The notes below the pieces were generated by a model that was given only the letters and a program-made list of their open reading frames with translations, did not search any database and was not told where the DNA came from. This document shows, one piece after another, positions 1,534 to 47,470 of a stretch of 61,020 nt of DNA. The position numbers and the translations under genes were made by a program. Origin of the DNA: Clostridia bacterium. Its GTDB lineage: Bacteria > Bacillota > Clostridia > Oscillospirales > CAG-272. The stretch spans positions 1 through 61,020 of the forward strand of contig JAFOEU010000036.1 of the NCBI GenBank assembly GCA_017387685.1. Direction: 5' to 3'. Each line of letters starts with the position of its first letter. Position 1 is the stretch's first letter.

Positions 1534-2907
1534 TTATTCAATGTTAGGCATTCCGTCGAAGCCTTTTTGAATTTCTTCGTCGGTGGGTGCGTAATCGGTC
1601 GGCTGTCCGTCGTTGTACTTGCCGTAAGCGAGCATATCGAAGTAACCCGTTCCGGTCAGACCGAAAACGATGGTCTTTGCCTCACCCGTTTCCTTACACT
1701 TAAGTGCCTCGTCGATAGCAACCTTGATCGCGTGCGAGCTTTCGGGAGCGGGAAGGATACCTTCAACTCTCGCAAACTCGACAGCCGCCTCGAAGACCTC
1801 GGTCTGCTTGACCGAAACAGCCTCCATAAGTCCCTGATCGTAGAGTGCGGAAAGAGTGGTGTTCATGCCGTGATAGCGCAGACCGCCCGAGTGGTGAGGC
1901 GCGGGGATGAATCCGCTGCCGAGCGTATACATCTTCGCAAGCGGGCAGACCATACCCGTGTCGCAATAGTCGTATGCGTATTTACCTCTTGTGAGCGAGG
2001 GGCAGGATGCGGGTTCAACCGCGATAAAGCGGTAATCAGCCTCGCCGCGGAGCTTTTCGCCCATAAAGGGAGCGATAAGACCGCCAAGGTTCGAGCCGCC
2101 GCCCGCACAGCCGATGATGATATCAGCCTTTTCGCCGTATTTATCAAGTGCGGTCTTGGTTTCAAGACCGATGACGGACTGGTGAAGCATAACCTGATTG
2201 AGCACGCTTCCGAGAACGTAGCGGTAGCCGGGAGTGTTCGTTGCGACCTCAACAGCCTCGCTTATCGCACAGCCAAGGCTTCCCGAGGTACCGGGATGAG
2301 CCGCGAGGATCTTTCGTCCGACAACGGTATCGGGCGAGGGCGAGGGAGTTACGGTTGCGCCGTAGGTCTTCATGACCTCGCGGCGGTGCGGTTTCTGCTC
2401 ATAGGAAACCTTAACCATATAGACCTTGCAGTCGAGTCCGAGGTAAGCGCACGCCATCGAAAGAGCGGTGCCCCACTGGCCCGCACCCGTTTCGGTGGTA
2501 ACGCCCTTGAGCCCCTGCTGCTTTGCGTAGTAAGCCTGCGCGATAGCGGAATTGAGCTTGTGGCTTCCGCTTGTGTTGTTTCCTTCAAATTTATAATAGA
2601 TCTTAGCGGGCGTGCCGAGCTTTTCCTCAAGGCAGTATGCGCGGATGAGGGGCGCGGGACGGTACATCTTATAGAAATCGCGGATTATATCGGGAATTTT
2701 GAAAAATCTCGTAGTGTCGTCAAGCTCCTGACGGATAGCCTCGTCGCAGAAAACAGCCGAAAGAGCCTCTGCGGTGATCGGCTTATGCGTTGCAGGATCG
2801 AGGAGCGGTGCGGGCTTATTCTGCATATCAGCGCGAAGGTTGTACCATTCGCGGGGAAGCTCGTTTTCACTCAGGTAAATTTTGTAGGGAATCTGATTCT
2901 TTTCCAT
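1534..2907 (-). CDS. TrpB2-like PLP-dependent tryptophan synthase beta chain
   Basis: 457 residues from ATG 2907, chosen because AAGGAG lies just upstream; an upstream in-frame start is disregarded since it would lie inside the T-box terminator. The lysine expected to bind PLP lies in NNTSGSHKLNSA, and the phosphate-binding glycine loop is CAGGGSNLGG. The extended N-terminus (NELPREWYNLRADMQNKPAP) and length above the ~400 of TrpB1 point to the TrpB2 branch, which makes tryptophan from indole and serine. There is no trpA nearby, so it probably works alone, salvaging indole. The tryptophan-type T-box upstream supports this function. Confidence 0.9.
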   Translation of the reverse strand: MEKNQIPYKIYLSENELPREWYNLRADMQNKPAPLLDPATHKPITAEALSAVFCDEAIRQELDDTTRFFKIPDIIRDFYKMYRPAPLIRAYCLEEKLGTPAKIYYKFEGNNTSGSHKLNSAIAQAYYAKQQGLKGVTTETGAGQWGTALSMACAYLGLDCKVYMVKVSYEQKPHRREVMKTYGATVTPSPSPDTVVGRKILAAHPGTSGSLGCAISEAVEVATNTPGYRYVLGSVLNQVMLHQSVIGLETKTALDKYGEKADIIIGCAGGGSNLGGLIAPFMGEKLRGEADYRFIAVEPASCPSLTRGKYAYDYCDTGMVCPLAKMYTLGSGFIPAPHHSGGLRYHGMNTTLSALYDQGLMEAVSVKQTEVFEAAVEFARVEGILPAPESSHAIKVAIDEALKCKETGEAKTIVFGLTGTGYFDMLAYGKYNDGQPTDYAPTDEEIQKGFDGMPNIE

Positions 2908-2945
2908 TTTGATTTCTCCTTTTTCTTTGTGAGCTCGGGCAGGGA

Positions 2946-2985
2946 TAAAAAACAAAAACCCCGCCCCGGTGAAATTAGCCGGGAC
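2946..2985 (-). terminator. T-box intrinsic terminator
   Basis: On the minus strand CCTGTCCCGG pairs with CCGGGGCGGG (10 pairs including G-U) and is followed by GTTTTTG. It overlaps the 3' half of the T-box, so it is the conditional terminator that forms when charged tRNA is abundant. Confidence 0.8.
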
Positions 2986-3205
2986 AGGAAAAATCCTGCG
3001 GTGCCACCCTGCTTGATGCTATACGCATCCACTCACGTGTACTTCATACACTCGTTCTGTAACGGGAACACCCGTCTCGGCTACTCAGCTCGCGCATTTC
3101 ACCTCGCCCTCAAAAGCCCATTCACAAGCCCTATCCCACCGCGATCACACCACCCGCGGCTCTCTGAACGGAATCGAAACCTGATACTACTCTTTCTCAT
3201 CGGTT
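2946..3205 (-). promoter_or_regulatory. T-box riboswitch, tryptophan specific
   Basis: The hallmark AGGGTGGCACCGC box is read on the minus strand at about 2999-3011. Upstream are the GATGAGAAAGAGTAGTA start of stem I (about 3187-3203), an AGAGAGCCGCGG apical element, and a candidate specifier loop GTGAATGGGC in which TGG (3118-3120) would be the tryptophan codon. A terminator follows the box directly. T-boxes bind uncharged tRNA and then form an antiterminator, so tryptophan starvation should switch on the TrpB2-like gene and the HAD gene. The specifier is an inference from position and agrees with the enzyme downstream. Confidence 0.88.
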
Positions 3206-3212
3206 TAAAAAA

Positions 3213-3322: not shown

Positions 3323-3724
3323 GTGAAGAAATGCAACATTTGTAATTGTATTGTCGACGAGATCAGCGAATGTCCGATCTGCGGGAACACAATCACGTAC
3401 GAGCCGACCGTTACGGAAGATAAAGAAAAGTTTGTTTGGAACAAATATTATCTGATCTATTTGCTGAAAAATACGTGGTTTGCCAGCATCTGCACTGTTA
3501 TCGGATTGGTGATCGCAATAATCACAAAACCCGAACTTGATACAACTCTCATTTTGGCAATCGCACTCCTGATAGCATCGTTTTTATTCGGCGTATTCAA
3601 CAGAAGATATGCCCGAGCAATTCAATGGAAGTATTCCGAAAAATGGGCAAAGAACCGCGCAATCAGCGCGCATTTCACCACAGGCATTCTCGCATTAGTA
3701 TTCTTTATGATGTCCGCATTATAA
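3323..3724 (+). CDS. Small zinc-ribbon membrane protein, unknown role
   Basis: 133 residues from a GTG start with GGAGG about 8 bases upstream; a TATAAT at 3286-3291 can serve as -10 although no good -35 is seen. The N-terminus carries two CxxC pairs (CNIC and CPIC), a zinc-ribbon, followed by about three hydrophobic segments (roughly 47-67, 71-88, 112-132). It is flanked by a divergent T-box operon and a convergent AraC gene, so it is transcribed alone. No family was recognised beyond the general zinc-ribbon plus membrane layout. Confidence 0.7.
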   Translation: MKKCNICNCIVDEISECPICGNTITYEPTVTEDKEKFVWNKYYLIYLLKNTWFASICTVIGLVIAIITKPELDTTLILAIALLIASFLFGVFNRRYARAIQWKYSEKWAKNRAISAHFTTGILALVFFMMSAL

Positions 3725-3727
3725 CAT

Positions 3728-3768
3728 AAAAGCAGTATTTCAAGGAAACGGAAATACTGCTTTTGTTA
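3728..3768 (+). terminator. Intrinsic terminator
   Basis: AAAAGCAGTATTTC (3728-3741) and GAAATACTGCTTTT (3751-3764) form a 14-bp stem with a 9-base loop, then TGTTATT. It ends the small membrane protein gene. Confidence 0.85.
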
Positions 3769-3776
3769 TTAATGAT

Positions 3777-3884
3777 AATTTTCGCCATAGCGAAAATTCA
3801 CCTTCATTCCGCCGAAGGCGGATTATCATTCGCGCATCGCGCGATTATCATTCTGCGAAGCAGATTATCATTCGCCGAAGGCGA
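3777..3884. repeat. Modular hairpin array 1 (five hairpins, TTATCAT linkers)
   Basis: Five short perfect hairpins in a row: AATTTTCGC/GCGAAAATT (3777-3798), TCCGCC/GGCGGA (3808-3822), TCGCGC/GCGCGA (3830-3844), TCTGC/GCAGA (3852-3864), TCGCC/GGCGA (3872-3884). Loops of 3-4 bases, three of them GAA. The last four are separated by an identical linker TTATCAT. Stem sequences differ from one another while pairing is kept. The array ends 5 bases from the stop of the AraC gene. Confidence 0.9.
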
Positions 3885-3889
3885 TAGAC

Positions 3890-4786
3890 TCACGCCCCTT
3901 CACGCACCATCCTCCTATACTCCGACGGTGTCATATCCGTCGCCGACCGAAAAGCTCGGATAAAGGTCGAAAGCGAAGAATATCCCACCGCATAGCAAAC
4001 ATCTATCATTTGCAACCCCTCACCGATCAGCGACTTTGCTTTGGCAACGCGAAGCTCGTGGATATAGTCCATCACCGTGGTGTCGTAATACTTCTTGAAA
4101 AGCCTTGAAATATACTCGCGGCTGTAAAAGAAATGCTCGGCTACCTCTCCGACCGACTCTATCTCAGCAAAATGCGCGTCGATGTACTCTTTCAGCGCAA
4201 GAATGTTCTCGGGCAGGCTTTCGGTGTTTCCGCGTGTGCGGATATCCTTTCTGCCGAGCAGACAAAATATCTCGATAATATACCCGAATCCGAGCGCCCG
4301 CGACAAAGGCTCGTCCGCTCTCTTTACCGCCCCCGCGAGTTTTTCGGCAAGCGCGAGAAGCTCCTCGCCCTTCTCCTTCGAGGAAAGCGAGAAAAGCACA
4401 GCATCCTCGGCGCGCAAAAGCACGTCCGCAAGACAATCTCCAACAGCTTCAAAGGCGTTCGGATAAAGATAAAACACGTGTCGGGCGTAGTGCGTGCTCT
4501 CGCCCTTTATCTTCGACATGTGAAATTTACCGGGCGGGATGATAATAACGTCACCCCTGCGCGGCGAATATACGCTTGACTCGCAAACGTAATTGATCTC
4601 GCCCTCCGCGAAAATGACGAGCTCGTAGTAATCGTGGCTGTGCAGACTCGACGGAAAGGTGTTGCGGTCATAGCGTGTGCTTCGCGCTGAGTAATAGAGC
4701 GAATCGTTGATCTGTACATTCTCCCAGTTGACTATCTCGTGCCGCGGGGCGTTCTTATTTTGCAGATAATGCGATAATAGCTTCAT
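3890..4786 (-). CDS. AraC-family transcriptional regulator with cupin sensor
   Basis: 298 residues. The first ~110 are a cupin-like effector domain (SLHSHDYYELVIFAEGEI, RRGDVIIIPPGKFH), the last ~100 the double helix-turn-helix of the AraC/XylS family, with VGEVAEHFFYSREYISRLFK and the second HTH around IDVCYAVGYSSLSTFIRAFR. The gene is divergent from the FAD oxidoreductase, and the intergenic region carries two direct repeats 21 bases apart just upstream of the oxidoreductase promoter, the usual layout for AraC-type activation. It is therefore the likely activator of that gene; the ligand, perhaps a sugar or acid taken by the oxidoreductase, is unknown. Confidence 0.9.
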   Translation of the reverse strand: MKLLSHYLQNKNAPRHEIVNWENVQINDSLYYSARSTRYDRNTFPSSLHSHDYYELVIFAEGEINYVCESSVYSPRRGDVIIIPPGKFHMSKIKGESTHYARHVFYLYPNAFEAVGDCLADVLLRAEDAVLFSLSSKEKGEELLALAEKLAGAVKRADEPLSRALGFGYIIEIFCLLGRKDIRTRGNTESLPENILALKEYIDAHFAEIESVGEVAEHFFYSREYISRLFKKYYDTTVMDYIHELRVAKAKSLIGEGLQMIDVCYAVGYSSLSTFIRAFRSATDMTPSEYRRMVREGA

Positions 4787-33163: not shown

Positions 33164-33354
33164 CACGCCGAAGGCGTGTATGAAATCAAGGCGAAGCCTT
33201 GTATGGAATCCGCAACTTGTTGCGGTATGGAATCATCACGCAGTGATGCATGGCATCAATCCGAAGGAAGATACACGCTATCGCGTGATGCCATACGCCT
33301 GCGGCGATTCCATACACGACTGCGTCGTGATTACATACCAATCCTTCGGATTGG
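33164..33354. repeat. Modular hairpin array 2 (nine hairpins, mirrored linkers)
   Basis: Hairpins at 33164-33178 (CACGCC), 33187-33201 (CAAGGC), 33210-33225 (CCGCAA), 33234-33248 (CATCAC), 33257-33268 (degraded), 33274-33287 (CACGC), 33296-33306 (CGCC), 33315-33329 (CACGAC) and 33338-33354 (CCAATCC); each stem pairs with its own complement. The first four are joined by 8-base linkers TATGAAAT/TATGGAAT/TATGGAAT/CATGGCAT, while later linkers are ATGCCATA and ATTCCATA, the reverse complement. Thus the array is mirrored about its centre. GAA loops in the left half become TTC at the right end. Confidence 0.9.
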
Positions 33355-33389: not shown

Positions 33390-33464
33390 TGGCTGGGATG
33401 GCCGGATTCGGACCGACGAATGCGGGAGTCAAAGTCCCGTGCCTTACCGCTTGGCGACATCCCA
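33390..33464 (-). tRNA. tRNA-Gln (anticodon TTG)
   Basis: Read on the minus strand: acceptor TGGGATG/CATCCCA, D-arm GCC-AAGCGGTAA-GGC, anticodon arm CGGGA-CTTTGAC-TCCCG giving anticodon TTG, T-arm GTCGG-TCCGAAT-CCGGC, discriminator G and an encoded CCA (33390-33392). The cloverleaf is complete. Position 54 is followed by C rather than the common second T in the T-loop (TCCGAAT). It lies 53 bases after the DUF3048 gene on the same strand with a hairpin (33471-33496) between them. Confidence 0.95.
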
Positions 33465-47177: not shown

Positions 47178-47426
47178 GTTACTAGTTACTAGTTACTAGT
47201 TGCTAGTTACTAGTTGAAGGTAGATTTCCTCGCGTTGCTCGGAAATCAATATAATAGAAAAAACTCTCGGATATCTCAAAGCGTTGCTTTAGGTTATCCG
47301 AGAGTTTTTTGTTTACTCGTTTGAAATTTATACCGTACAAAATCTTATCCGCAAAGCACAAAATTATTGAATGTAATTTTTGCTCTGCAAAAATTTACCT
47401 TCAACTAGCAACTAGTAACTAACAAC
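47178..47426. repeat. Heptad-repeat inverted element after alaS
   Basis: Five GTTACTA heptads (one GTTGCTA) run from 47178 to 47212, followed by GTTGAAGGTA (47213-47222). The mirror image is at the right: TACCTTCAAC (47396-47405) followed by three complementary heptads TAGCAAC, TAGTAAC, TAACAAC (47406-47426). The 173 bases between hold a terminator. This 249-bp unit looks like a miniature, possibly mobile or slipped-strand repeat. No gene is seen inside. Confidence 0.75.
47258..47310 (+). terminator. Terminator of alaS
   Basis: AAAAAACTCTCGGATA (47258-47273) pairs with its near complement TATCCGAGAGTTTTTT (47295-47310), with a second small hairpin AAAGC/GCTTT in the loop. Flanked by the heptad repeats, so it may have come in with the element. 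Confidence 0.85.
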
Positions 47427-47430
47427 TAAA

Positions 47431-47470
47431 AAAACACCGCATCCGCGCCAAAGCGCGGATGCGGTGTTTT
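47431..47470. terminator. Terminator of the long sugar-transport operon
   Basis: Perfect 17-bp stem AAAACACCGCATCCGCG (47431-47447) and its complement (47454-47470) with loop CCAAAG. Same inner core and size as the terminator at 6894. Confidence 0.92.

Follow-up and report, generated by a model that had tools for sequence, protein, structure and literature searches.

A polarised family of hairpin cassettes, dispersed between the genes of a Clostridia bacterium and its sister species, keeps its pairing while its letters change

The window analysed here is a stretch of 61,020 nucleotides from a Clostridia bacterium (contig JAFOEU010000036.1 of assembly GCA_017387685.1), in which an earlier note, made from the letters alone, had drawn attention to an array of five hairpins. 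As that note had claimed, the array lies between a terminator-like repeat and the stop codon of a convergent gene. The inverted repeat with its T run on the left side (~3727-3767) was read by eye and is absent from a consensus scan; the convergent ORF on the right is presumably AraC-like, to judge by its translation. The features of the locus are as follows:

3323-3724, + strand: small ORF left of the array, then the terminator-like repeat
3777..3798, + strand: head hairpin with an AT-rich outer stem, 9 bp, loop CATA (4); the same kind of head precedes other tails
3800..3806, + strand: ACCTTCA motif after the head, from pattern scans
3808..3822, + strand: tail hairpin 1, TCCGCC GAA GGCGGA, 6 bp, from the fold
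3823..3829, + strand: linker TTATCAT
3830..3844, + strand: tail hairpin 2, TCGCGC ATC GCGCGA, 6 bp, from the fold
3845..3851, + strand: linker TTATCAT
3852..3864, + strand: tail hairpin 3, TCTGC GAA GCAGA, 5 bp, from the fold
3865..3871, + strand: linker TTATCAT
3872..3884, + strand: tail hairpin 4, TCGCC GAA GGCGA, 5 bp, from the fold, ending 5 nt short of the convergent stop codon
3890..4786, - strand: convergent ORF facing the array tail

Direct reading and folding as single-stranded DNA agree that the five perfect hairpins at 3777-3884 are real, and that the last four are joined by identical TTATCAT linkers and carry three GAA loops and one ATC loop. The + strand folds into exactly these five hairpins (-29.3 kcal/mol, z -4.94), and the - strand folds with z -3.59 as RNA and z -5.85 as DNA; in each case 0/200 shuffles equal the observed value. 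Rfam 15, at gathering score, has no match over the array, its matches in the window being one T-box leader and one tRNA. A T-box leader at 2977-3209 (-) precedes the ORF at 1534-2955 (-), which is presumably tryptophan synthase beta-like, to judge by its translation. Positions 3700-3950 have no match among phages and plasmids at E 1e-3, and phage or plasmid cargo was rejected on this ground.

The array belongs to a family of intergenic cassettes that is dispersed and polarised; each copy consists of a head hairpin, then ACCTTCA, then about four tail units. The constant part had been put at 7 bases; it is larger, and includes the head hairpin and ACCTTCA. The tail units, spaced by 7 nt, are hairpins, mostly with C(GNA)G loops and with TTATCAY linkers, or else plain heptamers, ACTAGCA for example, and the same head and ACCTTCA also precede tails of the plain kind. 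Two further cassettes of the window have heptamer tails:

47178..47247, - strand: second cassette, with head GATTTCCGAGCAACGCGAGGAAATC, ACCTTCA and a heptamer tail that reaches the stop of a + strand gene
47375..47432, + strand: third cassette, with head AATTTTTGCTCTGCAAAAATT, ACCTTCA and a tail of the ACTAGCA type

Similar arrays recur in the same genome and in sister species when searched for as the earlier note had proposed, so that a local accident was rejected and the suggestion of a hairpin family is borne out as a dispersed family. The comparison set comprised 13 genomes of the genus, the window's own being G000, and reversed patterns served as controls in the genus-wide scans. The pattern ACCTTYATTN{9,26}ATCAYTC is found at 14 places in G000, 9 in G009, 5 in G004 and 1 in G012, and at none in the other 9 genomes; the reversed pattern gave 0. 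Heads with any tail (pattern GAAAWYYNACCTTCA) number 19 in G000, 9 in G009, 9 in G004 and 2 in G012 among the same 13 genomes, together with one match in G010 that reads as chance and one reversed-pattern match in G004. In the fetched stretches, reciprocal best hits with G000 have a median protein identity of 90.4% for G009 (99 pairs), 87.9% for G004 (58 pairs) and 87.5% for G012 (72 pairs). To judge by matching arrays in loci L044 and L047, G004 appears to be RGIG9562 (yak colon) and G009 RGIG1801 (goat cecum). A pattern scan of genome contigs returned 29 stretches, of which, by context reading, only L044 and L047 hold arrays of the window's kind; the scan of viral contigs returned at least 120, with a palindrome in the gap in 0/80 of those examined. 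A family search of 295 genomes gave, beyond G000 and G009, six genomes with one match each, none palindromic by eye. In samples of 2-80 kb from 42 genomes, too small to speak for absence, a strict array finder detected arrays with similar linkers only in G000 (2); those whose linkers are unlike came from G000, G008, G009 and G012. By reading, the same plan with other linkers is present in two more distant members of the genus, G005 (after typA, L161) and G008 (L273). A search of open-licence papers found no description of this cassette family.

The number of tail units is narrow. An automatic count over 29 headed arrays gave four hairpins in 22 (at least two of which, L074 and L083, have three, the fourth token being the following terminator), two in 3, five in 3 and nine in 1; four hairpins are also the count in 29 of the 54 non-nested arrays of the four species. 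Heptamers of ACTAGCA, ACTAGTA, ACTAATA, ACTAACA, TTTTGCA, CTCTGCA and CTCTTCA types were seen. The heptamer tails in 546 kb of G000 measure 36-45 nt in 35/41 cases. Three side observations concern variants and neighbours of the cassettes. A sequence of ~95 nt with inverted repeats of its own interrupts an early tail hairpin in two cassettes (L067, on contig C1 of G000, and L136, ~11681, -), which looks like the insertion of a small mobile piece. A further dispersed repeat, in which a hairpin around CTTTTTGAAAAAG precedes AAAACTTTCCCGCTG or the like, often stands just before the head, as it does to the left of the head in L071, L077, L079, L083, L085, L087 and L088. A five-hairpin array at L139 2421-2530 (contig C48 of G000) has ATTCCAT-type linkers and non-GNA loops.

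Placement was counted over 546 kb of G000, many stretches of which were picked for holding heads (parts of contigs C48 and C63 were also taken after their matches were known), with gene calls from a purpose-written script. An automatic finder located 58 cassettes, none of them inside a gene: 24 lie in convergent, 33 in co-directional and 1 in divergent gaps, the available gaps of at least 60 nt being 36, 139 and 50, respectively. The tail points to a stop codon in 43/58 cassettes and to a start codon in 15/58, and its side is nearer the gene than the head side in 55/58. Tail scores divide the 58 into 41 heptamer and 17 hairpin tails, at least one of the latter (C57 10348) being a heptamer tail by eye. 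Among stop-facing tails, 28/34 of the heptamer kind end no more than 13 nt from the stop codon, and 5/9 of the hairpin kind end 1-10 nt from it. The GC skew around 40 arrays is mixed (cassette strand C-rich in 17, flat in 14, G-rich in 9). The window, C48 1-140000 and C63 1-60000, 261 kb in all, hold 25 cassettes, a choice of stretches from which no safe genome-wide number follows.

The earlier note had described freely varying stems with a pattern of covariation. That pairing is kept while the sequence changes was confirmed, but the stems are not freely variable, being drawn from a small vocabulary with fixed closing pairs. A linker test that allowed two mismatches proved too loose, and exact and relaxed linkers were used in its place. 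Defined by two exact TTATCAY linkers, and thus blind to pairing, 46 units were collected, 35 of them of 15 nt; these 35 hold 10 distinct stem pairs, in which the outermost T-A and innermost C-G are constant and the middle pairs vary. Watson-Crick pairing is complete in 31/35, the others having a tandem G.A mismatch (3) or a T.G pair (1). Counting distinct TTATCAY units, 15/18 are fully paired, where 2000 shuffles gave 2.5 on average and 10 at most. When the linker is relaxed to HHAYMAY, fully paired units amount to 74/137 at 15 nt, 32/89 at 13 nt and 3/85 at 17 nt, and with the reversed linker to 0/53 (15 nt), 0/55 (13 nt) and 0/61 (17 nt). In DNA, minihairpins with GNA loops have unusual stability, as do tandem sheared G.A pairs. 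Units of the form TCGAGC..GCGAGA and heads of the form TTTTCGAGC..GCGAGAAAA retain the tandem G.A mismatch, with CGAG on both sides (L089, L092, L093 and many heads), as if it were kept like an allowed pair.

At the 3' end of typA, an array occupies the same position in four species, past the terminator-like repeat of the gene, and its stems and linkers differ between them. In four scored helices 108/108 cells pair and 7/27 pairs have changed on both sides, a combination that 0/500 shuffles reach, although the structure was taken from one aligned row, which favours pairing, and gapped inner hairpins fall outside the scored helices. Five of the seven double-sided changes lie in array hairpins and two in the terminator-like stem; none is in the head. 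Elsewhere, entire tails differ between sister species. The FAD-gene locus has hairpin tails in G000, G004 and G009 and a TTTTGCA-type tail, behind a similar head, in G012. At C57|5, where the flanks are alike, a CTCTGCA-type tail in G000 stands against a TTTTGCA-type tail in G004, and at C48|6, where the head is nearly the same, an ACTAGCA-type tail in G000 against a TTTTGCA-type tail in G009. Smaller changes are also found: by reading, the G012 array at C1|14 is the G004 array minus two inner units, and at C63|49, behind nearly the same head, G000 has TCTGC/GCAGA as its second hairpin where G004 has TCGGC/GCCGA.

Linkers are typical of the species that carries them. TTATCAC (28/46) and TTATCAT (9/46) are common in G000; CTATCAT (10/46), TTATCAT (8/46) and TCATCAT (6/46) in G009; TAACCAT (15/43) and TTATCAT (7/43) in G004; and TCTTAAC (3/9) in G012. 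These counts use non-nested arrays, nested arrays with TAACCAT linkers being counted once; with one vote for each of the 54 non-nested arrays, 1/5000 permutations is equally extreme. An automatic test of gene sides that bear a cassette in G000 detected no cassette in the sister at 15/21 for G009, 0/6 for G004 and 4/9 for G012, and many cassette positions are thus probably unshared between G000 and G009. At 17 shared sites, heads and tails are more alike than in random pairs, although by eye at least three of these pairs are false and the choice of stretches was centred on matches, so that the statistics are biased and were not relied on; the greater similarity of units at matching sites suggests that tails are partly inherited.

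A second kind of array lies at 33164-33354 of the window, with TATGGAAT linkers on the inward side and their reverse complement on the outward side, then a terminator-like repeat and a tRNA gene (33393-33464, - strand). In other genera, too, arrays of this plan lie next to tRNA genes, there with TATATCAT linkers. Hairpins of this sister family, with CGAAG between TATCAT linkers, were found in 53/394 genomes of the order and in 32/169 genera, and no match of the reversed pattern was tabulated. Outside G000, the stem reaches 4 bp or more in 81 of the 94 listed strings and falls short of this in 13, the pattern itself having demanded no stem, and a tRNA gene is present in 16 of 20 such loci that were fetched.

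The cassettes may be set beside known repeats, within the parts of the cited accounts available to us. An array in which a short constant part alternates with variable parts recalls a CRISPR array; this was rejected, in agreement with the earlier note, because the repeat is 7 nt rather than ~20-50 nt and the variable parts are palindromes rather than unique, non-palindromic spacers. BOX, RUP and SPRITE of Streptococcus pneumoniae, as described in part of one source (PMC3049150), are likewise short, multi-copy, intergenic, enriched in convergent gaps and predicted to form stem-loops. BOX is moreover built of modules, with inner units that vary in number (PMC3049150), and the cassettes too are dispersed copies of a fixed module with variable inner units, namely a head and 2 to 5 or more tail hairpins. 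In the same partial account, however, BOX modules are recognised by sequence (PMC3049150), whereas stems and linkers of the cassettes change while pairing stays, and the cassette tail may be plain heptamers and abuts a gene end. The TAACTGA repeats of Beggiatoaceae also consist of two to six 7-nt repeats, intergenic and at gene ends, with 7-nt-step indels and stop codons in the repeat, but they use one fixed heptamer, mostly before start codons, and the portion of the account available mentions no head or inter-repeat hairpins (PMC4679880). TAACTGA is not among the cassette heptamer types. Hairpin-forming elements of sponge mitochondria proliferate in intergenic DNA, with stems conserved and loops varying according to the part of the source at hand (PMC2800124), the reverse of the cassettes, in which stems vary and loops are kept. 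Finally, the promoter hairpins of the phage N4 virion RNA polymerase share the short stem, the three-base C(GNA)G loop and strand specificity, but in the excerpted description they stand singly, as promoter elements that a phage polymerase reads (PMC4496689), and the likeness is one of shape only.

The cassette family is real, repeated and polarised, it keeps pairing while its sequence is replaced, and it is a new variant of the small interspersed repeats. How it comes to do so can be read in several ways. The reading that we prefer, although we regard it as no better than evenly balanced, is that of a small interspersed repeat whose tail would be rewritten repeatedly at the DNA level, tolerated and perhaps used at transcript ends. 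The head with ACCTTCA would act as a one-sided anchor for tail copying; tails could be copied between loci, or slip within one locus, through template switching or gene conversion while the DNA is single-stranded; and perfect palindromes could be restored when one arm folds back and is copied onto the other. Template switching or gene conversion is proposed because the shared anchor, the whole-tail differences, the gain and loss of units and the likeness within a genome fit such processes. Cassettes might survive mainly at gene 3' ends since they would do little damage there, and read-through transcripts would gain hairpins from them, with a possible benefit to the host. Loop polarity bears on this reading. 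GNA loops are on the cassette strand in 28/37 hairpins that face starts and in 86/113 that face stops (TNC or TNNC in 1 and 1), counts that may include nested arrays. Selection on RNA predicts GNA loops on the transcribed strand; they follow the cassette strand instead, which favours DNA-level descent or constraint over a purely RNA role. Descent from one master copy would give the same cassette-strand loops, and its recent spread with ordinary inheritance could be another source of both the species-typical linkers and the GNA loops. No enzyme or intermediate for tail rewriting was found, and the proposed copying leaves the narrow unit number unexplained. The retention of inverted repeats as structures despite sequence change has been described in nematodes, in the part of that report available (PMC1803023). 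A stronger form of DNA-level rewriting, which we think rather unlikely, would make this a structure-inherited repeat family, in which a head-anchored process of the cell rewrites tails in place, homogenises them within a genome and preserves both unit number and perfect pairing; gene ends throughout the genome would then carry a hairpin code typical of the species.

The chief alternative, a minority possibility that we take seriously, is a device acting in RNA, either a structured 3' UTR or a hairpin-cluster terminator, which would stop transcription or protect the ends of mRNA, the compensating changes then reflecting selection on RNA. The predominance of stop-facing tails, the enrichment in convergent gaps and the RNA fold of the window array's - strand, which the convergent gene would transcribe, all agree with such a role, as does the resemblance, by eye, of some heads to terminator hairpins with runs of A and T; a terminator function has been proposed for hairpin clusters that follow stop codons (PMC8355165, seen in part). 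Against it, and against the transcription-stop or mRNA-end role suggested in the earlier note, the 15 start-facing cassettes would be transcribed on the opposite strand, and the typA arrays lie past the terminator-like repeat of their gene; moreover, GNA loops stay on the cassette strand in both classes, and the same places may be taken by hairpin-free heptamer tails. Those heptamer tails also speak against a device driven by supercoiling, since they are unable to extrude as cruciforms. Such a device, which would extrude as do the phage N4 early promoters and so absorb or sense supercoiling at the ends of transcription units, seems to us improbable, even though the loops are strand-specific and stems of 5-7 bp closed by C(GNA)G fit what extrusion of the N4 hairpins needs, on the partial description used (PMC4496689). 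Transcription leaves negative supercoils in divergent gaps, where only 1 of the 58 cassettes lies, and this near absence, with 24 in convergent gaps, speaks against the idea that placement is determined by transcription-driven negative supercoiling.

That each array merely expands alone, by replication slippage of a 7-nt repeat, with neither traffic between loci nor function, is very improbable in our judgement. Heptamers are a frequent slippage unit in bacteria, according to the part of the source available (PMC4679880), and units are gained or lost in whole steps, but slippage in isolation sits poorly with the narrow unit number of both tail kinds, with a head and ACCTTCA common to the cassettes, and with linkers that are alike across unlinked loci of one genome. 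Scarcely probable, lastly, is a REP-like element mobilised by a Y1 (RAYT) transposase that works on single-stranded hairpins. REP/BIME repeats with TnpA-REP, as partly described (PMC8266576), are likewise dispersed extragenic palindromes able to act as single-stranded hairpins, and the cassettes share their position at gene ends; in the same source, however, REP palindromes are preceded by GTAG and accompanied by a Y1 transposase. A RAYT-mobilised REP/BIME was rejected for the window, where no GTAG-like tetranucleotide precedes the head palindrome, and for want of a Y1 match in G000. The search of the 13 genus genomes with PF01797 gave matches in G004, G009 and G011 and none in G000, which is 84.67% complete, so that a gene may be missed. 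Y1 transposases do not track cassettes across genomes: the cassette-bearing G000 and G012 have no Y1_Tnp match, whereas G011 has one and, by the patterns used, no cassettes (genomes 84-86% complete). Nor are cassettes evident beside the three Y1 genes (L102-L104), where a weak head candidate in L103 and in L104, each with a GTGG-type hairpin, was all that was seen.

Pairing that is kept while letters change is usually taken as proof of a selected RNA structure. With loops that follow a DNA strand, and with hairpins in one species and heptamers in another at a single site, the cassettes suggest that a DNA copying process may imitate RNA covariation. If this is true, structure-based searches for non-coding RNA among gut Clostridia might pick up arrays of this sort as false families, and the cassettes would provide a natural record of the writing and upkeep of palindromes. 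If they serve transcript ends instead, they would constitute an abundant gene-end module that Rfam does not match in the window.
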